From a virus, in IMG/VR virus record IMGVR_UViG_3300013099_000107, positions 1-20,832 of that record: a DNA stretch of 20,832 bases, one strand, 5' to 3'. The position numbers and the translations under genes were made by a program. The notes beneath the pieces were generated by a model. It saw nothing but the letters and a program-made list of their open reading frames with translations, was not told the origin of the DNA and did not search any database. Of this stretch, positions 1,793 to 20,832 are shown in pieces (positions within the stretch are counted from its first letter, which is position 1; each line of letters starts with the position of its first letter).

Positions 1793-2719
1793 TTAAATGT
1801 AATAGCCATTAACATATCCATACGAGGTATCAATAACGTAATAGTGCTTAACTATAACAATACAGTCATTTGACAGCACGCCAGTTAGGGTGGCTCGCAA
1901 GAGGGCGATAGCAGCACCGCCATCTGCAAGCATCCCTTCTTGTCCGACATAAACCCCTAATATAGAGAGGGAGCTGTAAGAAGAAAGATAAACCTGAATC
2001 TTGGCAGCAGAAGCACCCTTCCTGACACCATCATCACTTACATCGACATTAGTGTTGGATGTACTGGAAGCAGAAGGCCAGTCTCCTATACTGTTTTTTG
2101 CAACCTTCACATACCGACCCATGCCAACACTTCCACCAACCTGTTGCCAGTCTGTTCCATCGTGCATGAACTCCAATGTGTCACCAGCTATCAATGGTAT
2201 GGTCATCCCAGTCTTGGTTAACCCACCATCAACGGTAGTATATGCTTCGGTAGCCATAATATTAATTACTTGCCCCTCCACACCATCATCAAAATCTGTG
2301 ACCGTGGTGGCGGAGGTATTTACAAACTTAAAGGAGTTCCCATCTTTCACCGATGGCGTAGTGTCGTTCAACGATAGCGATTGGATATCTGTAACATCAA
2401 TGGCACTATCGTTAGTACCATCATACAGGAACATTGTTTTCGTGGTAGTGTTGTACCATATTTCTCCAGCAGCTACTCCAGCGGGCCTTGACGTTCCCGA
2501 AGGAATGTTTGCAACTATTTGAGTATCAGTAACGCCATTCCACTTATACCAGATACCAGTAGACGAATTATACCAGATACCACCAGGCTCTAAGTAAGAA
2601 GGCCTGGCAGTACCAGCGTGACTATTCATGGATGAACGATGAGCATTCTTGCTATTGTCCATAGTGGTTCCACCAGGAGCAACTCCACCAGTATATATTT
2701 CCCACGATCTATGTGTCAT
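1793..2719 (-). CDS. Tail fibre-like protein, copy B of a tandem pair
   Basis: Protein of 308 aa beginning MTHRSWEIYTGG. The ATG at 2719 follows AAGGGAT by a normal spacing; that Shine-Dalgarno overlaps the stop of the neighbouring copy. Residues about 35-110 hold two copies of a short motif, GT-x-RP...G-x-IWY...(W/F)-x-Y/W-(D/N)G-x-(T/N)D, also found in copy A. The middle part (LNDTTPSV...VNTSATTVTDFDDGV...TIPLIAGDTLEF) resembles beta-structured phage fibre domains. The last 100 residues differ most from copy A, although both end in GYYI. It probably forms part of the adsorption apparatus with the tip protein encoded just upstream. Receptor and oligomeric state cannot be told from the sequence. 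Confidence 0.75.
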   Translation of the reverse strand: MTHRSWEIYTGGVAPGGTTMDNSKNAHRSSMNSHAGTARPSYLEPGGIWYNSSTGIWYKWNGVTDTQIVANIPSGTSRPAGVAAGEIWYNTTTKTMFLYDGTNDSAIDVTDIQSLSLNDTTPSVKDGNSFKFVNTSATTVTDFDDGVEGQVINIMATEAYTTVDGGLTKTGMTIPLIAGDTLEFMHDGTDWQQVGGSVGMGRYVKVAKNSIGDWPSASSTSNTNVDVSDDGVRKGASAAKIQVYLSSYSSLSILGVYVGQEGMLADGGAAIALLRATLTGVLSNDCIVIVKHYYVIDTSYGYVNGYYI

Positions 2720-2730
2720 AATTTAATCCC

Positions 2731-3633
2731 TTAAATGTAATATCCTAGAATACGACCAATGGAAGTTGATACAGCCACCCAGTGTTTCACATATATTACT
2801 GCCGAGCTATTAAGAGGTGCGAGTGCATCGCTTATAACTGACGAAGATGCAGTATCCCTAAAAGCATCTCGACCGTCAGCACCAGCTGCAGACGTTGCGA
2901 AGGCGACTAATTTATCTCCCCCCCCGGATTTGTCCATTCTAACACTTATTAATGCGTTCGTTGCGCCTTTTCTGACACTTTCACCAGTTAAATCTACTGC
3001 AGTATATGAAGTAGTGGATGCTGTAATCCAAGTAGCTATGGAGGACACGGCTAGTCTGACAAATTGCCCCATGCCAACATTACCTGCTATCTGCTTCCAA
3101 GCTGTTCCATTGTGAACAAACTCAAGCCTGTCACCAGCTATTAGCGGTATAGTCTTTCCGGTCTTGGTTAGCCCACTGCCAATAGTAGTATACGAAGTAG
3201 TTATTAGTAGTATAAGCTTATCGCCCTTCACTCCATCGTCAAATGTGGTAACGGTAGTTGCTGAAGTATTAACTTCTTCAAAACTTCCTCCACCTTCTAC
3301 AGAGGGAGTAGTATCGTTTAATGGAAGACTTTTACTGCCGTATCTCGCAATAACAATATCATTGGTTCCATCATAAAAGTAAAGTATCTTATCAGTAGAT
3401 TGATACCAGAGACTATCGGAGTCAAGCCCACTCGGTCTTGTTGCTCCTGATGGGAGTGCTCCAGCGAGCTCTTTGTCGGTAGACCCATCATATTTATACC
3501 ACTTGCCATCGCTGGTTTTAAACCAAATACCACCAGCCTCCAGGTAGGAAGGCCTGCTTGTACCAGCATGCATGTTCATAGCAGCTCTATGTGCGTCTCT
3601 TGAATTAGGTATCGTTGTCCCACCAGGGGCCAC
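2731..3633 (-). CDS. Tail fibre-like protein, copy A; start uncertain
   Basis: Paralogue of copy B with the same order: N-terminal APGGTT segment, two IWY-type repeats, the LNDTTPSV and VNTSATTVTTFDDGV region, and a divergent C-terminal domain ending GYYI. The first canonical start is the GTG at 3633 (300 aa), which has no well-spaced ribosome binding site. The open frame continues upstream to a TGA at 3676-3678 and encodes QSWEIYTGVV, the counterpart of RSWEIYTGGV in copy B, so the true protein probably starts earlier. The codon aligned with the ATG of copy B is ATC at 3667-3669, four bases after GAGG. The gene therefore uses a non-canonical start, a shortened start, or is slightly damaged. 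It also contains eight consecutive G on its coding strand (2918-2925), encoding the GG of KSGGGDK. Confidence 0.7.
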   Translation of the reverse strand: MAPGGTTIPNSRDAHRAAMNMHAGTSRPSYLEAGGIWFKTSDGKWYKYDGSTDKELAGALPSGATRPSGLDSDSLWYQSTDKILYFYDGTNDIVIARYGSKSLPLNDTTPSVEGGGSFEEVNTSATTVTTFDDGVKGDKLILLITTSYTTIGSGLTKTGKTIPLIAGDRLEFVHNGTAWKQIAGNVGMGQFVRLAVSSIATWITASTTSYTAVDLTGESVRKGATNALISVRMDKSGGGDKLVAFATSAAGADGRDAFRDTASSSVISDALAPLNSSAVIYVKHWVAVSTSIGRILGYYI

Positions 3634-3708
3634 AACACCTGTATATATTTCCCAACTCTGATTAGAGATAAGTCCTCACCCATTCTTTCTTATATTTCAT
3701 ATTACCAT

Positions 3709-3717
3709 ATCATAGCA
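3709..3717 (-). promoter_or_regulatory. Possible extended -10 promoter before fibre genes
   Basis: On the minus strand the gap between the tip gene and fibre copy A contains TGCTATGAT, an extended -10 form (TGn plus TATGAT). No good -35 hexamer is seen 16-18 bases upstream. Transcription would start near 3702 and could serve the fibre, chaperone and HNH genes. This rests on a short motif in an AT-rich gap. Confidence 0.3.
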
Positions 3718-3742
3718 TTACAGTACAGCTTATAACTGTTTA

Positions 3743-6700
3743 TTAATAACCTTTAACCAGCCAACTAATTACTCCCGACTTACCGGTTCCAGTAGAGTCA
3801 AGAATCTGAACGGTAAACCCAGTTTCAGAAGATGACGAAACAACAACCGTATCGCCCGACAAAGCATTTACCTGTGTAACCTGTGGCGACTGTGATTCTT
3901 GGAATGCTGTGTCGAACACGATAGCAGTTCCACTAGATGAAATAGACACAGTATTGGCAGAAGCCACTCTGTCTTCCATATCAAGTGACCATACGAAGGT
4001 TGCGATGTATCCTGTGATACCTTCATTGCAATCCATTTGTAGTCTAACCTCAAAATATCTGCCATGGTACGATGCATTTATGAGGTTCTGCCAGCTACCC
4101 CAGGCCGATGCTCCATCTGCTTTGGTTCTTATCTGGGGTTGTACTCTGACCTTGGCTGTTGCTCCTGAGAACAAATCATCCATAAGCAGTAGATCGTCTT
4201 CCAGCAACAAGTTTGTTAGTCCATCAGACCCAAAGAATTCAAGATCTGTAACAGTTCCAATTACCCAATCGTCGTGACCAAGATCAAGGATATTACTTGG
4301 GTGCGTTGTATATGTTCCGGTAAGCATTCCAGAAGGATATGTATCCTCCGGATCAGATATCCCACTCCACACTTTAGCTATATAGGTACTATCGACACCA
4401 GCCCCACGACCAATCTGCATGTTGTGGATATAAGCATTCGACTGCTGTGGGTCGCATGACAAGTGAAGCATCTGGTCAGATCCTGATGTTGATGTGTATG
4501 CTGTTCCTGTACCTTTAAGAACACCATCCACATATAGTTCACTTTCGCCAGTCTCTATTTTGAGTATCCACATTATTTCAACATCACCAGTATTGGCTAT
4601 GTCAACAGATAGATCCCCAGTAGAGAGCTTGAACACTATTTCATAATTACTATTCCTTGAGTTTATATCAACATCCATAAGGTGGAGTCCAGGATATTTT
4701 CCATATCCCTTCATAGACATTTTGTTTGTTGTTGTGGCTCCTGAATAAACATCCATATTGAACTTGCCGGACATTACAAGATAGTCGCCATCTTCATCAT
4801 TGAAGTTGTACCCAACCTTAGCGTCGAAACCTTCAGCCGGTGTAACTGGAATCTTTATCTTATCAGTGTCAAGAGAATGCGTACCGGACAATTCCCATGT
4901 CCCTGCTTCTGGCAATTGCTCAGTATCGCCAAACCAGTTCCTTGCCAGGATGTCAAGGTTGTGATAGCAACTACCAGCATATTGTCCAGTGCCATCTTCG
5001 GTAACTTCATGGACTATGTTAATAATGGAATTGATTCCATCTACAGCTACTGAAGCTGCGTTGATAGACTCTGCTCCACCAATTATGGTCCTTGCCTTAA
5101 CGAGAAAGGTTCCGTCCTGAGCAGGGAAATATTCATACCCAGTTTGAATAGATATAATACTGCCACCCTCCCAGGCTGTTTTTCTTATCTCATATTCCAC
5201 TCCTCGAGTATCTGTTACTGGGCTCCACGTAAGCACTACCTTCCCGTTTTTATATGATGACTGTAGGTTGGTGACATCTGCAGGAGGAGATTCTGTGAAT
5301 GATAATTCTTCATTAACTAGTGTGGCCCATTCGGAAACAAAAGCTCCAACCATAGTTCGAACTCTGAATGAGTACATCCCTGCAGGCGTGTTCTCGATAT
5401 TGAAAACAGTCCTGGAAGTATTCGCAACAAATTCCCACACGCTGGAGTCGGGCCTCAACATCTGAACGGTAAAAGAGTCTGGGACAGTATCGATGGGATA
5501 CATCCATGCTAAAGACAAGCCTAGTTTAAGTGTTCCTGAATCATCCTTGTAGAGATACTCTCCTGCAGTGAGATTCCTTGGCGGGTTAATTGATTGAGTA
5601 GTTTCGCCAGGTGGGACGTATGGTGGTATCGTACCCTGGTCTGCTTGGTATATCAGACTGGAATACGGTATACATGTTATCTCGGCTTCCTTACCTGCCA
5701 TTGGATGAATCTTCGTGACGATTGCATCTATATGCCCTAACGATTCCTCAAAAACGGCACAGAGGTCATCCTTGTTAATATCAGCAGGCATAGAAGACAC
5801 ATTAAATGTACTGGTCAATCCAACTTGCCCAGGCACAACGTCAACATCAACAACCACTCCTTGCTCGCTTCGGTGGGTGAGAATATAATCTGTTCCAGAT
5901 TCGAGCTCTACTTCTTCATATAACTGAATCCAATCGACACCAAATGATTTCACTCTTGAACTCGCCAATCCAAGATTCGCTGTGTCGTGCTGAATGACTA
6001 TCCTATCGCCTCTGGTACATGCTATATATTCAATATCAGCCAGGAATTTCCATGACTCAACTTGGTATTCGCCTGCTGCCAGATAATATCTCCCAAGCTT
6101 CCATACGTGATCCCGGTCAGTAACACCAAAGAATTGCATTTTCTCAAAGATAGATGCAGCAGTATTTCCACCAAAGCCATTCTTATCGTAGCCATCAGCA
6201 TACACAATACGTTCTCTTTGTTGCCAGTTGTCACCTCTATCGAAGAAGTTACACTTCAATGCATGTGGATGCTCAACGAAGTATACTTCACCCTGGAATG
6301 ATCTTACGTTTTCAGAAGCAAAGAATTGCCACTCACCAGCCTGTGGCTCATCAATAACAACACTATGCAATCCATCTGGGATAGCATATGTAGCCCTGCC
6401 TGATGTTGTGATGGCTTGCATTCTTCTGGATAATATATCGAAACTATCCAGGACCGCATTGAACTCGAAACCGCTATTGCCACAAAACGTATGCCAAGAT
6501 GCAAGCTTTACGAGATCTATCTTACTGTCAGGGACGGGACTCGCGTTGAATTCTCCCTGGAGTAAATACCTATAAGCATCAGCGGGATTTTCATGTCCCG
6601 ATGCAGCTATGCAATTAAACGTATTAATATCCCCGTTGAGCTGGTCTGTTGCCTTGATCCGCAATTCAACTCTTGTAAGTGTGTATGGGACTTGTATCGG

Positions 6701-13139: not shown

Positions 13140-13484
13140 TTACTCTCCCCGGCCTGGGCCAAAAACCACACATGCAATTATAGTCCCCTGTTTTCTTCCG
13201 AGCTTTAGCAATGGCATCACCTTCATTATGTGATAAGTAATGCCATCAAGTGTCAGTCTCATCTTCGTGTCGATATCATCTCGATATCTTATGGTGATAA
13301 ATAATGACTCTTCATTGATAACTTCGACACCGGTGACTTTCTCACCGAAAGCATTGTCAGCTACGCTGCATGGCAGAGTTTTATATACTGTCCATTCATT
13401 CGTAATCTCTCCAGTAGCTGGATTTTTTACATCCACCTCTTCAAGAATATTTATGCGTCTGTCTAATTTACCAATTAAAAGCAT
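13140..13484 (-). CDS. Head closure / head-tail joining protein
   Basis: Protein of 114 aa. The ATG at 13484, one base after the preceding TAG, is preferred to a TTG at 13508 inside the upstream gene; AGGCG gives it a usable ribosome binding site. The sequence matches the SPP1 gp16-like joining family: GKLDRRINILEE at the start, GEITNEWTVYKTLPCSVAD, ESLFITIRYRDDI with the typical R-x-R pattern, then MRLTLDGITYHIMKV and a C-terminal strand. The protein plugs the connector after packaging and offers the surface to which the tail docks. It is flanked by a putative head protein and the gp10-like gene with one-base spacings, suggesting coupled translation. Confidence 0.82.
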   Translation of the reverse strand: MLLIGKLDRRINILEEVDVKNPATGEITNEWTVYKTLPCSVADNAFGEKVTGVEVINEESLFITIRYRDDIDTKMRLTLDGITYHIMKVMPLLKLGRKQGTIIACVVFGPGRGE

Positions 13485-13485
13485 A

Positions 13486-13983
13486 CTATGCGCCTGTACC
13501 TTCTCCAACGATAATCAACTTGTAAGTTCCGCCACTTCCTCCAGCAAGGAAATTAAGAAGATCGGCAGTTCCTGCAGTAACAGTCCATCCTGAATTTGGG
13601 GCAACAAGCATTGCAGTTCCACCAGGCTGAACATTAAGTCTGTCTGAAGCATCGCCAAAAGGAGCCACAAAGCCATTAGCGGCTGAAGGACCAAATACTA
13701 TATCTTCAGCATTGTCAACATCCGCCAATACGAAGATAGCCTTTACCTTAGTGAAGGACAATACCTGTCCGACATTATCTTCAATGGTTCCAGAAAGATC
13801 TACATCCTCATTAGCAGAAGCGCCAAGTGTGCTCTCGTTACCGAAAGATATTTGAGCTTTAGCATCTCCAGTACCATCAAGGAGTGTCTGAAGAAATGAT
13901 TCGCTAAACGCACCGTCTGCTGGGTAATCCCCAGGGCCTGGTTTGTCAGTAACTTGTAATTTTACAACGATTTTGGTTTTCAT
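13486..13983 (-). CDS. Putative head structural protein
   Basis: Acidic, cysteine-free protein of 165 aa. It has no signal peptide and reads as a beta-sandwich. Notable segments are FSESFLQTLLDGTGDAKAQISFG, ASANEDVDLSGTIEDNVGQVLSFTKVKAIFVLAD, a loop with DRLNVQPGGTAMLVAPNSGW, and TVTAGTADLLNFLAGGSGGTYKLIIVGEG. The pattern recurs in uncharacterised proteins of siphovirus head modules, often between adaptor and closure genes. A decoration or minor head role is an inference from location. The ribosome binding site is weak (GAAAG), unlike most neighbours. Confidence 0.65.
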   Translation of the reverse strand: MKTKIVVKLQVTDKPGPGDYPADGAFSESFLQTLLDGTGDAKAQISFGNESTLGASANEDVDLSGTIEDNVGQVLSFTKVKAIFVLADVDNAEDIVFGPSAANGFVAPFGDASDRLNVQPGGTAMLVAPNSGWTVTAGTADLLNFLAGGSGGTYKLIIVGEGTGA

Positions 13984-13987
13984 TTTT

Positions 13988-14446
13988 CTACTTTCTATTT
14001 ATGCTGCAGATATGTAGCACGTAATCATAACTCGGATCTGACATAAATTTAATTCTAAAGACACCATTCACAGGAAGGCTCAATACGATAAGTTCATCTT
14101 TACTTATCTGAAAAGCCCCAGAGCTACCACAGTCTTGCCAATATTCATTACCGTCAGCATCGACTCCACTTGCTTGTATACTCCACCTGGAGGCAGTGTC
14201 TAACGTTCCAGTAGGAACATCAGTCTTAAGGCTGAAGGATTGGAATTCTGAGTGGGTAACATTGAACCCCGTTGTATATGTATCCGATGAACCAGCAACT
14301 ATAGTGTAAGTATTGAGGGGAGATATTGGACTAGCTTCACCAGATATCGACAAGTACTGGGACATCACCCTGGCTTCCGCCTGGGCAAATGATGGTGCCA
14401 TCGACATGGCTATAAACATTAACATTATAATTATAATTATTTTCAT
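13988..14446 (-). CDS. Exported protein of unknown function in head module
   Basis: Protein of 152 aa with a textbook Sec signal peptide: Lys2, a hydrophobic run rich in Ile and Met (residues 3-16), and an AQA site at 21-23, so cleavage is expected before Glu24. There is no lipobox. The mature 129 residues appear as beta strands: STYTIV-like and TYTTGFNV segments, SRWSIQASGVDADGNEYWQ and ELIVLSLPVNGVFRIKFM. They contain exactly two cysteines, Cys106 and Cys147, which could pair in an oxidising periplasm. The ATG overlaps the adaptor stop (ATGA), and a strong GGAGGAG lies 8-10 bases upstream, so it is probably well expressed with the head genes. Most head-module genes have no export signal. 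No homologue is recognised; surface or exclusion functions are possible. Confidence 0.8.
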   Translation of the reverse strand: MKIIIIIMLMFIAMSMAPSFAQAEARVMSQYLSISGEASPISPLNTYTIVAGSSDTYTTGFNVTHSEFQSFSLKTDVPTGTLDTASRWSIQASGVDADGNEYWQDCGSSGAFQISKDELIVLSLPVNGVFRIKFMSDPSYDYVLHICSINRK

Positions 14447-15021
14447 GAATAAAACTCCTCCGGTACTATTAGTGAATCAAGCATATGATCCACAAACCCC
14501 ATCTTCGAGGTAATCGTTCCGATAATCTCTGACTGTCTGTTCTCAAACATATCAGCCAAACGAACCAGCATCCATTCCTTCGCCTCTGCTGGAATATCAT
14601 CGGCAGTCAGATACCCAGCAACATAAGTAATCTTTACAGAGTCACCTCTTGGCATTACGCCAGTTGGCCAGGTAGTACCGTAATTAACTTCAATGTAACA
14701 TTGTTTGTCTCCAAGAAACGTTTCATAGTCTGAAGTAGATACGGTATTCCAGTTGCCATCAGTATCCATATACTCAACACTGGTAACTGAAGCAACCTGC
14801 GGTTTCTCAAGAAATATCTTCTTGCAGAATCCATCAAGATAGGCTTCGTATGTTATTGGCATACAAGACCTTTTTGTTATCTGCTTAAACCTGTTTGCCA
14901 CCACACTAATGAGCATGTTGATGTACGCATCGTCGTCGCTTTCAACAACTCTTAAGAAGTCTTTGACTTCCTGAAGTGTGAGTGGTTTTAAGGTTTCAGC
15001 TACCAGCACATTAAGATTCAT
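14443..15021 (-). CDS. Head-tail connector (adaptor), gp6-like
   Basis: Protein of 192 aa of the HK97 gp6/SPP1 gp15 adaptor group, which forms a ring beneath the portal. The N terminus has the diagnostic LKPLTLQEVKDFLRVVESDDDAYINMLISVVANRFKQITKRS, a helix pair followed by the ITYEAYLDGF strand. Later come SVEYMDTDGNWNTVSTSDYE and VKITYVAGY before a run of C-terminal helices (ADDIPAEAKEWMLVRLADMFENRQ). All are standard for this family. The start overlaps the upstream stop (TAATG) and its stop overlaps the next start (ATGA), so three genes are coupled. Confidence 0.9.
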   Translation of the reverse strand: MNLNVLVAETLKPLTLQEVKDFLRVVESDDDAYINMLISVVANRFKQITKRSCMPITYEAYLDGFCKKIFLEKPQVASVTSVEYMDTDGNWNTVSTSDYETFLGDKQCYIEVNYGTTWPTGVMPRGDSVKITYVAGYLTADDIPAEAKEWMLVRLADMFENRQSEIIGTITSKMGFVDHMLDSLIVPEEFYS

Positions 15022-15203
15022 TATTTATTCTTTCCGTTTTTCTTGGTGGCTTTCTCAGCAGCTTCTTTAGCAGCCTTAGCATTCTTGAGTCTCTGCTCTG
15101 GAGTAATTGCTCTTCCGTCTGCAAGCAAACGTCTGGCCATCTTGTCACTATATTCTACTTCTTCGCCGGCTCGTCTACCAACAGTACAAATTAATTTTTT
15201 CAC
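15021..15203 (-). CDS. Small basic head-module protein
   Basis: Protein of 60 aa from GTG 15203, with AAGGAAG six bases upstream. The first half, including VGRRAGEEVEYSDKMARRLLADGRA, resembles short proteins found between capsid and adaptor genes in HK97-like phages. The second half is a Lys/Ala-rich helix. It overlaps the adaptor start by one base. Its function is unknown; capsid or connector association is suggested by place only. A homing endonuclease gene has come to lie between it and the capsid gene. Confidence 0.65.
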   Translation of the reverse strand: MKKLICTVGRRAGEEVEYSDKMARRLLADGRAITPEQRLKNAKAAKEAAEKATKKNGKNK

Positions 15204-15228: not shown

Positions 15229-16641
15229 TTAAATGTTAAACTTTATATTACCACAGTCATACAGCCTGTGCCAGCCATTGACTGCATTTATCTCTTCTTC
15301 GGTCAAGTCCATATCACAATTACCAAAAACAGTAGGCAGCTTATGTTTCATTCTTCTCTGCCTGCTAACACAGACACCATTCTTGGTATAACAATAATTT
15401 GGGCTAGTCCTGTATTCTTCAGTGAACCCAGACTTCCTATAGCCATTGCCGTTAAAGTGACTCAGATCGCAAAATGAGAACTTTACAGGCATATGAGCAA
15501 TGAGCCTCTTAAGTCCTGCCCCAACGTTCCAATCTCCTCTGACCACGTACCTAACTAACTCTCCGGTCTTGCTGGAAACATTGGCTGCACATACCAATAG
15601 GCCATCATAATAAAGCCCCTTCATTATAGCCCCACCTCGATATCCCTGAAGATGGTTCTCCTCGCAGAATAATCTAAAGTCAGGGGTACACATATCCTTT
15701 ATTTCGCACTGCCTTGCCCATACCTTGTTTGAGTTTGCATCAACTCTGTTCTTTAGAATATTTTTATATATTGCTTTCTTTGATTTCCATAGATCTTCTC
15801 TGATGTGAACCAAATCAATACCTTTAGCCCATGCCATTTTAGACTTATCGAGAACATTAAAACGTTCTTTGCATTTTGAACTATGCCAATACGTTCCATC
15901 AAACTCTATAGCCAAGTTGTGTGAAGGTATCCATATATCAACTTCATATCGTTTGTCGGCGAACAGTCCCCTGACCGATGCCTCAACACTCACGCCAATG
16001 CTCTTAAGATATTCCATTACTTCCAGTTCCCCAGAAGATCTGAACCTTGTGCATAACGGACAGCCATTACCCCTTACAAAATTGTAGGGAAGAATGGTAA
16101 AGTCCCCATGCTCCTTGCAGGTTACAGTTATTCTGTCCTGAGAAGAAGTATATACGGATTTCGAAAGGTCATATGTTCCTTTTCCATGTGTTGCTACTAC
16201 CTTGGACTCGAACGTTTCCTGAGAGTCGGTACGTCCAGTAGAACGTTTCTCAAGGGCGCATTTAGTGCAAGAGCGTCTAAGGAGGTTGTTGGGAGTAGAC
16301 TCAAATGGGCCATGCTTCCTACAAATAAAATTAGACTTTACCTGCATTCCACTGTATATGAAGTCATCAAATATAACCATATCACCATGAATCTTGCTGA
16401 GTCGCTCTACTACCAATTCCCTTGGTAATATATGTGACCTCTCAAGATAACATGCTTTACATCCAGAGCCTCGTTTGTGTACCGAAGCCGACTGAATAAA
16501 TGCCCCATGTATAGGGCATATGATTTCGACTTTTGAATCATACTTATCAATAGAAGTAACGTTACTGTAGTCATATATACCATCATTAATTTCGGTGCAT
16601 ATACGTTTCCATTCATCTAAAGTAATAGATTTTCTTGGCAT
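15229..16641 (-). CDS. Free-standing homing endonuclease, Vsr-like fold with three zinc repeats
   Basis: Protein of 470 aa. The ATG at 16641 has a perfect AAGGAGGTG seven bases upstream; an upstream start at 16686 is less likely. Three DUF723-like DNA-binding repeats come first, each with CxxH...CxxC: C42/H45/C61/C64, C107/H110/C125/C128 and C175/H178/C194/C197. A nuclease follows with SGELEV (E205), YEVDIWIPS (D235), AIEFDGTYWHS (H253) and HIREDLW (D283), the arrangement of the Vsr-fold EDxHD homing enzymes typified by I-Bth0305I. Residues 325-470 hold a third domain (ENHLQGYRGG, FSFCDLSHFNGNGY, PNYCY, YDCGNIKF) common in phage homing enzymes. It sits between intact capsid and head genes, so it is a free-standing insertion. 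A second copy lies at the right edge. Confidence 0.85.
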   Translation of the reverse strand: MPRKSITLDEWKRICTEINDGIYDYSNVTSIDKYDSKVEIICPIHGAFIQSASVHKRGSGCKACYLERSHILPRELVVERLSKIHGDMVIFDDFIYSGMQVKSNFICRKHGPFESTPNNLLRRSCTKCALEKRSTGRTDSQETFESKVVATHGKGTYDLSKSVYTSSQDRITVTCKEHGDFTILPYNFVRGNGCPLCTRFRSSGELEVMEYLKSIGVSVEASVRGLFADKRYEVDIWIPSHNLAIEFDGTYWHSSKCKERFNVLDKSKMAWAKGIDLVHIREDLWKSKKAIYKNILKNRVDANSNKVWARQCEIKDMCTPDFRLFCEENHLQGYRGGAIMKGLYYDGLLVCAANVSSKTGELVRYVVRGDWNVGAGLKRLIAHMPVKFSFCDLSHFNGNGYRKSGFTEEYRTSPNYCYTKNGVCVSRQRRMKHKLPTVFGNCDMDLTEEEINAVNGWHRLYDCGNIKFNI

Positions 16642-16661
16642 TTCGGCACCTCCTTTTTTGT

Positions 16662-16691
16662 AGTATATAACACAGTAATGTTGCATTGCAA
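16662..16691 (-). promoter_or_regulatory. Possible promoter of homing endonuclease gene
   Basis: Minus-strand TTGCAA (16686-16691) and TATACT (16662-16667) are 18 bases apart, directly after the capsid hairpin and before the endonuclease ribosome binding site. The -35 matches four and the -10 five of six consensus bases. The leader would be very short. Confidence 0.35.
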
Positions 16692-16735: not shown

Positions 16736-18037
16736 CTATGCTCTTGTTGCCAGAGCGATTGCGGAACTGATAGTTGGCCCACCATTGGCAGGAGTAATAT
16801 CAGAAGCCATCTTGTGTTTTCCGTCGAACCTGTAGGTATAACGGAAAGCAGTCTGGTCAGTAAGGAATTCTACGTGGACACTTACAGCAGCCTTGATTCC
16901 ACCTTTGTCGATTGCAGCATAGTCGCTGAGGTCAGCAAATACGATGTCACCAACAGTTCCAAGAGTAGCACAATACTCGATTGGGAGAATAGGTCTGCCG
17001 AGAAGCATACCGAATGGAGCATTAGCCACAACGCCACCAGGAATAAACACAGGCTGGTCGCCAACAGTCATTCCGAAGAGCTGTGGAAGGATGTCCTGAG
17101 AGATGAACCATACAGCATTAAGAATGCTTGAAGGTTTCATTCTTGAATACATCTTGAAGATATTCTCAACAACAACAGTTGCAGCAACCTGGGAAGTTTC
17201 TTTAGCCACAGTGATAAGTCCACCTGAGTTAAGAAGGCCCTCTGGTTCGCCAGTTCCACTACCATTGATGATAGCATCTTCAACTTTCCAGTTGATTGCC
17301 TGTGGAGCTTTCTTGCTGATGAAGGATTCGAGAGCACCTGCATCTTCAAGGATTTCGTCAGTAGCATAAACAAGCGCATGCACTTTATTCAAGCTAAGGT
17401 CAAGCTCACCGAATACTGGCTGACTCTTAGTGAGAGCAGCAGCTTCAGCACCCCAGTAACCAAGAACGCCACCAGCGATAACGCCATTAGCATAAGTGGT
17501 TTCAGCAACAGTAGGAATCTTCAGACCGTTACCAGCAACAGAGATAAGGTCTACTCTACTAAGGACATGAGAATTAATTTCTCTTGCAGACTCATAGATT
17601 TCTTTAGCCTGGTCCTGCTGTACTAGGTATCCACCGGCTGAGTTAACAGCTTCGTTAGCACCCTGAGCAGCACGAATCTCTTTGAGGCGTGGGTCAACTT
17701 CATGAGTCTTAGCAGCTCTCATAACTGCTCTCAGGAAATCTGCCTTTGTTTCAAATGGATTAGCTCGGTCTTCCTGTGTTACAGAGATATTCGCGTTGCT
17801 TGAGTCGGCAGGTTTAGATGCTGGCTTGTTAAGGCGAGCTTCAGTTTCCCTGGCAACAGTTGCCATAGTAGCAAGTTTTGCAGAACGTGCTTCCTTATTG
17901 TCAATAAGCTCTTTTACTTTGTCTGCTTCTTCAACAGCACCGTTGAATCGAACTTCCTCTTCGGCAGTCAGTTCTTCTTTTTCACCAAGTTCTTTAGCAC
18001 TACGAAGTGCAATTTCAAGTCTTTCTTTGAGAGTCAT
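16736..18037 (-). CDS. Major capsid protein, HK97 fold
   Basis: Protein of 433 aa with AAGGAAG just upstream of its ATG. Residues 1 to about 70 form a charged coiled coil (LKERLEIALRSAKELGEK...EADKVKELIDNKEARSAKLA), the scaffolding delta domain removed in HK97-type phages. A linker with PASKPADSSN and a helical segment (ETKADFLRAVMRAAK) lead to the mature shell domain. That begins around SAGGYLVQQDQAKEIYESA and continues with INSHVLSRVDLISV, GLKIPTV, ALVYATDEILEDA, AINWKVEDAIINGSGTGEPEGLL and RYTYRFDG, all usual capsid-family elements. The protease gene lies directly upstream. The exact cleavage site cannot be read. Hairpins lie at both ends of the gene. Confidence 0.95.
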   Translation of the reverse strand: MTLKERLEIALRSAKELGEKEELTAEEEVRFNGAVEEADKVKELIDNKEARSAKLATMATVARETEARLNKPASKPADSSNANISVTQEDRANPFETKADFLRAVMRAAKTHEVDPRLKEIRAAQGANEAVNSAGGYLVQQDQAKEIYESAREINSHVLSRVDLISVAGNGLKIPTVAETTYANGVIAGGVLGYWGAEAAALTKSQPVFGELDLSLNKVHALVYATDEILEDAGALESFISKKAPQAINWKVEDAIINGSGTGEPEGLLNSGGLITVAKETSQVAATVVVENIFKMYSRMKPSSILNAVWFISQDILPQLFGMTVGDQPVFIPGGVVANAPFGMLLGRPILPIEYCATLGTVGDIVFADLSDYAAIDKGGIKAAVSVHVEFLTDQTAFRYTYRFDGKHKMASDITPANGGPTISSAIALATRA

Positions 18038-20010: not shown

Positions 20011-20832
20011 TTATTTGTCCTTCATTGTAAATTTAATATTTCCACAGTCAAAAATTCTGTACCACCCATTGGCGTTACATATCTGCACTTCGGTTTGGCT
20101 CTTTGCAAACGTCTGCCCAAAAGCTTTCTCCAGCTTATGCCTCATGTGAGTTTGTCTTGATACCGTAACTTCACCTTTCTCATATCTGTAATTAGGCCTA
20201 CAGCGAGCCTCTTCTTCGAACCCTGCAATAACATACCCTCTTCCGTTGAAGTGGCTCAGGTCGCAGAATGAGAATCTTATATCGACTCCTTTGATAAGCC
20301 TCTTGAGCCCAGCACCTACGCTCCAGTCTTTCTTCACTACGTATCTTACTAGTTCTCCAACCTTATTGGAATTCATGGCAGCGACAAGCTCGCCCTTGAA
20401 GAACAAACCCCTCATGGTTTTTCCTCCGCGATATCCCTGAAGATGATTCTCTTCACAGAAGGCCTTAAACTCAGACCTGCCAAGACTCCTGAGCTTGCAC
20501 TTCCTTGCCCACGTCTTGTTTGAATTGAGGCCCAGCCTATTGCGGATAACAGACTTATAGATATCCTTCTTGTCGTTCCATAGGTCTTCTCTAACGTGAA
20601 TCAGATCAATGCCTTCAGCCCATGCTTCTTCTGACTTATGCAGGATGTTGTAGATGTCCTTGGCATGGCGTTCAGAATGCCAGTGAATCCCATTGAACTC
20701 TATTGCAAGATTATGGGAGGGGACGAATATATCAAGCTCTTTCCCTGACGGAAGAACGTCTCTACGGCTGTTGTCGTTTGCTACTCCCAGGGACCATATA
20801 TAATCCGAGATTTCAAGCTCTGGTTTAGAAGG
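20011..20832 (-). CDS. Homing endonuclease, second copy, 5' end beyond window
   Basis: The frame is open from the window edge to a TAA at 20011, giving the last 273 residues. The first visible residues, PSKPELEISDYIWSLGV, correspond to the start of the nuclease domain in the copy at 15229-16641. They are followed by KELDIFVPSHNLAIEFNGIH, WHSE and LIHVREDLW, which hold the same E, D, H and D positions. The C-terminal domain has CEENHLQGYRGG, GAGLKRLI, FSFCDLSHFNGRGY, GF, RPNYRYEKG and FDCGNIKF. The two proteins are clearly paralogous but diverged. Zinc repeats like those of the other copy would lie outside the window. An internal ATG at 20415 is not the start. The gene stands just upstream of the portal operon. 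Confidence 0.8.
   Translation of the reverse strand, partial: PSKPELEISDYIWSLGVANDNSRRDVLPSGKELDIFVPSHNLAIEFNGIHWHSERHAKDIYNILHKSEEAWAEGIDLIHVREDLWNDKKDIYKSVIRNRLGLNSNKTWARKCKLRSLGRSEFKAFCEENHLQGYRGGKTMRGLFFKGELVAAMNSNKVGELVRYVVKKDWSVGAGLKRLIKGVDIRFSFCDLSHFNGRGYVIAGFEEEARCRPNYRYEKGEVTVSRQTHMRHKLEKAFGQTFAKSQTEVQICNANGWYRIFDCGNIKFTMKDK

Follow-up and report, generated by a model that had tools for sequence, protein, structure and literature searches.

The query gene lies in the head operon of an IMG/VR virus record (IMGVR_UViG_3300013099_000107), of which 20,832 nucleotides are termed here the window. Along the coding strand, the window encodes a portal, protease and major capsid protein, a homing-endonuclease-like protein, a 60-aa protein, the head-tail adaptor, the query and a phrog_22694 protein, followed by head closure, gp10-like, terminator, tail tube, chaperone, tape measure and tail tip genes (Table 1). 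Apart from one added gene, this is a standard siphophage module of the HK97/lambda type, and the lambda J type tail tip suggests a Gram-negative host. Downstream of the tail tip gene, two adjacent and similar proteins of about 300 aa (1793-3633) apparently represent a fibre-like protein duplicated in tandem, and close to the right end a 134-aa ORF (20011-20415) resembles, by eye, the C-terminal part of the window's homing-endonuclease-like protein.

Table 1. Coordinates of the query gene, its features and neighbours in the window, and of signal-like capsid proteins in related phages.
Feature	Coordinates	Strand	Basis
Gene for 152-aa predicted exported protein (query)	13988..14446	-	ORF and homologue in L014
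ATGA overlap of adaptor stop and query start (translational coupling)	14443..14446	-	Sequence; equivalent overlap in L014
Shine-Dalgarno GGAGGAG	14455..14461	-	8 nt ahead of query ATG
Predicted signal peptide coding part, residues 1-23	14378..14446 (to 14384 for residues 1-21 if cut at conserved A↓Q)	-	Sequence
Mature part, probably beta-rich, with C106 and C147	13991..14377	-	Low-confidence AF2 models
gp6-like head-tail adaptor, upstream gene	14443..15021	-	PF05135 1.9e-5 (above cut-off); phrog_442 4e-22
phrog_22694 protein, downstream gene, no signal	13486..13983	-	phrog_22694 match and relatives
Head completion/closure protein	13140..13508	-	PF05521, phrog_25
Major capsid protein, no signal	16736..18037	-	PF05065
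Signal-like capsid proteins	L004 1068-2555; L043 393-1775; L089 922-2343; L166 5614-7203		PF05065

By each sequence criterion (size, overlap, ribosome-binding site and G+C content), the query ORF is a real gene. It begins with an ATG, its G+C content is 0.41 against 0.41-0.45 in its neighbours, and both the overlap with the adaptor gene and the strong ribosome-binding site described in an earlier note on this DNA are present. No minus-strand promoter-like site was seen within or just ahead of the gene, the one seen being at 15181, and no promoter or terminator of its own rose above chance level. The coupling and the lack of an own promoter above chance support the predicted late co-expression with the head genes. 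Such tight coupling to the adaptor suggests that the amount of product is matched to that of the head-neck proteins, and we infer from a matched amount that a virion-related role is favoured over an exclusion role expressed in lysogens. A lysogenic-conversion moron is likewise disfavoured, given no own promoter above chance and a G+C content like that of the neighbours.

The query protein begins with MKIIIIIMLMFIAMSMAPSFAQAEAR, in which a single lysine (K2) precedes an uninterrupted hydrophobic core of 11-12 residues, P18 and alanines at positions -3 and -1. The N terminus thus shows the tripartite organization of a type I signal peptide, in agreement with the clean signal peptide previously described, and the positive n-region, hydrophobic core and small -3/-1 residues typical of Sec and signal peptidase I substrates are found both here and in the only homologue (see below). 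The core is short for a membrane anchor and no lipobox is present; a spanin or lipoprotein role was rejected on the lack of a lipobox and of any transmembrane helix besides the signal. Scored with a crude, home-made matrix derived from 16 E. coli signal peptides, the query ranked first among 72 window ORFs, its score of 6.1 lying at the low end of those of the training peptides (5.9-21.2, leave-one-out). With the same crude matrix, at least as high a score was reached by 89 of 4427 antisense ORFs (~2%) and by 735 of 20000 shuffled versions of the query N terminus (3.7%). The matrix alone is weak evidence; the strong and independent evidence is the conservation of the signal in the homologue.

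Using the downstream phrog_22694 neighbour as bait, we retrieved 80 IMG/VR loci, which yielded the single relative of the query (E 6e-19; 36% identity over the full length), at positions 3564-4001 of locus L014 (IMGVR_UViG_3300035698_000852). The L014 head-tail module is wholly collinear with that of the window, at 32-57% identity, and the relative occupies the same slot, preceded by the adaptor and followed by the phrog_22694 gene, so that in both phages the gene stands between the adaptor and head closure genes. The L014 gene also overlaps the adaptor stop codon in an ATGA, and a second ATGA joins it to the start of the next gene, whereas in the window a 4-nt gap follows the query. L014 carries a post-capsid accessory gene at the site taken in the window by the homing-endonuclease-like gene (15229-16686; phrog_559, phrog_3339). 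The place of the phrog_22694 gene itself varies among the phages compared (the window and L014-L093), where it follows the adaptor, the tail terminator or the tail tube gene. Over 144 codons, the query and its relative differ at 70 first, 65 second and 99 third positions, a third-position excess expected for a gene under selection.

The L014 protein starts with MKIIIFLLAMVMATCCYAQPN, a signal peptide of its own. In this one homologue both the signal and the genomic position are kept, and no relative lacking the hydrophobic N terminus was seen (n = 1); the gene, its coupling, its signal peptide and its conserved position are all apparent in the sequence itself. Retention of the signal in spite of only 36% overall identity supports export, and a tripartite signal peptide at the same position in the only detectable homologue makes it probable that the query protein is exported, as had been proposed. 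The query contains in-frame internal starts, GTG27 and ATG28, neither conserved in L014, and ATG28 could give rise to a signal-less form. If one of these were the true start, or if the hydrophobic N terminus were accidental, as the 2% of antisense ORFs with equally high scores on the crude matrix might suggest, the query would be a neck or head protein of the usual cytoplasmic kind. This reading is very unlikely: GGAGGAG serves the upstream ATG, and the L014 gene keeps its signal yet lacks in-frame starts between codons 12 and 80, which means that its product must carry the signal.

Comparison of the pair modified other details of the original description. The alanine-rich cleavage region predicted for the query was recovered, but the site shared by the two proteins is [FY]A↓Q (SFA↓QAE in the query and CYA↓QPN in L014) rather than AQA↓E, so that the query may be cut after A21 and not after A23. 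Likewise, the whole query protein does have exactly two cysteines (C106 and C147), but these are not a conserved pair, those of the L014 mature part being C28 and C43, and a conserved disulfide was accordingly rejected.

Searches of Pfam, PHROGs, PDB sequences, plasmids, isolated phages and GTDB (84,980 genomes) returned no relatives of the query, and IMG/VR none besides L014; the scans of these collections used short peptide patterns, with which diverged relatives can be missed. No Pfam or PHROG family, known exclusion families included, matched at E ≤ 1, and there was no match to a known decoration family. PDB matches to LpxC-like proteins (E about 0.6) were attributed to chance, and a weak HMM likeness to post-capsid proteins of related phages (L133, L149 and L116) was judged compositional. 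Two AlphaFold2 (AF2) models of the query were of low confidence (pLDDT 46 and 51), and a Foldseek search with a low-confidence model retrieved small domains of phage virion proteins without reaching significance (best E 0.005). Given that confidence, matches to antibody/FN3 and virion domains were used only to describe the mature protein as probably beta-rich.

An exported query might act in superinfection exclusion or receptor masking, covering or blocking the receptor or the DNA entry path late in infection so that progeny are not lost to dying cells. We regard this as unlikely, even though a small secreted two-cysteine protein would fit. Known exclusion proteins are mostly encoded by separately promoted genes and expressed in lysogens, unlike the query, for which no promoter of its own rose above chance and whose translation is tied to the head operon. 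Phage proteins that are exported or membrane-located and act in this way do exist, namely SieA of P22, Ltp and gp15 of HK97 (PMC10883804, PMC3952083, PMC11436027), and like the query as predicted here they are placed in the envelope, but neither Pfam nor PHROG links the query to any of them by homology, and gene context and likely expression differ.

The earlier note had also held that head-module proteins normally carry no signal. We surveyed 226 related loci, counting by family, for signal-like segments behind starts led by a Shine-Dalgarno sequence. Among portal, adaptor, phrog_22694, head closure, gp10, terminator, tail tube and tape measure proteins, 0 of 574 carried a signal, and a single, doubtful case was found among 63 proteases. 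Signals preceded 3 of 141 major capsid proteins (L043, L089 and L166), a somewhat generous count because a longer region was searched for starts in this family, and a further one, with a weaker ribosome-binding site, was found in L004, the isolated Bradyrhizobium phage ppBeUSDA76-1; in these PF05065 proteins the extension precedes the usual N terminus. In F1, a family of small proteins encoded near the adaptor, one of 11 members has a signal (L141, 5290-5721), which replaces the ancestral start methionine, and ten do not, including that of L161 (3218-3586). In F2, whose members are accessory proteins encoded close to the capsid gene, one of 17 bears a signal (L097, 7905-8744). Three members of phrog_1731, a virion structural protein, have signals: in L032 and L066 the family profile starts at residue 41-54, and in Sinorhizobium phage phi3LM21 (p34; L232 490-1038, MF614628.1) an in-frame ATG that lies 41 codons ahead of the annotated start and has its own ribosome-binding site adds the signal- or lipobox-like MKTVFFAVGFALLAVGCIALL, which the annotated start misses. 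The phrog_1731 member of phage KT1 (L235) has no signal. The survey also recorded a second exported-looking small protein in L097 (11182-11598), a 128-aa putative lipoprotein encoded between head closure-like and gp10-like genes in L002 (4860-5246; the same in L003), and, in Halomonas phage H4907 (L010, 6099-6437), a 112-aa protein that opens with a signal-like segment and whose gene is flanked by the tail chaperone region and the tape measure gene.

The generalization thus holds for the core connectors and fails for head proteins at large, given the capsid proteins, phrog_1731 and the two accessory families. With signals occurring on some head proteins of relatives, it is unsafe to argue from the signal that the query is not a virion part; the signal by itself does not exclude a virion role. 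Moreover, since similar N termini are found on other head-module proteins, even the cytoplasm-assembled capsid protein, the query segment may not mean export.

These observations bear on the main rival to a free periplasmic protein, in which the N terminus would, while heads assemble, dock the query at the inner membrane as a head-associated protein and would then be taken off either at that membrane or by the head protease of the phage, leaving a virion part. Signal-like starts on unrelated head proteins of relatives (capsid, phrog_1731, F1 and F2) agree with this, as do connector families devoid of any signal and a pattern, judged by eye, in which most such phages show just one signal-bearing head protein, although L097 has two candidates. 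Precedents are provided by T4 heads, whose assembly begins at the inner membrane (PMC4493910, PMC3185693), and by Porphyromonas phages, for which capsid signal peptides have been reported, with removal by the prohead protease suggested, along with exported proteins of unknown function (PMC10367356). Good signal-peptidase sites, however, would free the query protein rather than anchor it, and we consider docking possible but improbable. Equally tentative is the wider proposal that some tailed phages routinely give one head-module protein (capsid, decoration or small accessory) a Sec presequence, the product being a virion component that docks at the inner membrane or crosses it, and the trait being under-annotated because gene callers sometimes choose a downstream start.

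Known systems resemble the query only in part. The phrog_1731 proteins (L066, L032 and phi3LM21 p34) are also head-module proteins with a Sec-like N terminus, but they are unrelated to the query in sequence and their gene lies between the protease and capsid genes. The Porphyromonas 'Nixviridae' phages, compared by published description, likewise encode signal-peptide proteins without known function and with Gln at +1 after the cut. The A↓Q cleavage site would hint at a Bacteroidota host for the window as well; this is doubted because 10 of the 15 window genes checked are preceded by a Shine-Dalgarno sequence.

Taken together, our preferred reading, to which we assign a probability of roughly 0.5, is that the query is expressed late, is exported through Sec, is probably rich in beta structure and acts outside the cytoplasm in an accessory binding role. 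The gene would be a constant element of the late head-neck operon in a narrow siphophage lineage, translated along with the adaptor through the ATGA coupling and strong ribosome-binding site, so that its product would appear with the structural proteins. We infer export, cleavage and fold as follows: the signal peptide would feed the protein to Sec, signal peptidase I would cut after A21 or A23, and the mature protein of ~130 residues, probably a beta-sandwich, would sit in the periplasm. Freed at lysis, it would most likely serve as an accessory binder of the cell surface or of progeny virions, a binding role that is speculative.

If the query is exported, a late product acts outside the cytoplasm even though its gene belongs to the head-neck operon and is translationally coupled there, an unusual setting for a gene that acts on the envelope. 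Should the query instead be a virion part, it would join the scattered head proteins with Sec presequences, capsid proteins among them, and would raise the questions of why head components are directed to the membrane in some HK97-type phages and whether virions gain parts from the periplasm at lysis.
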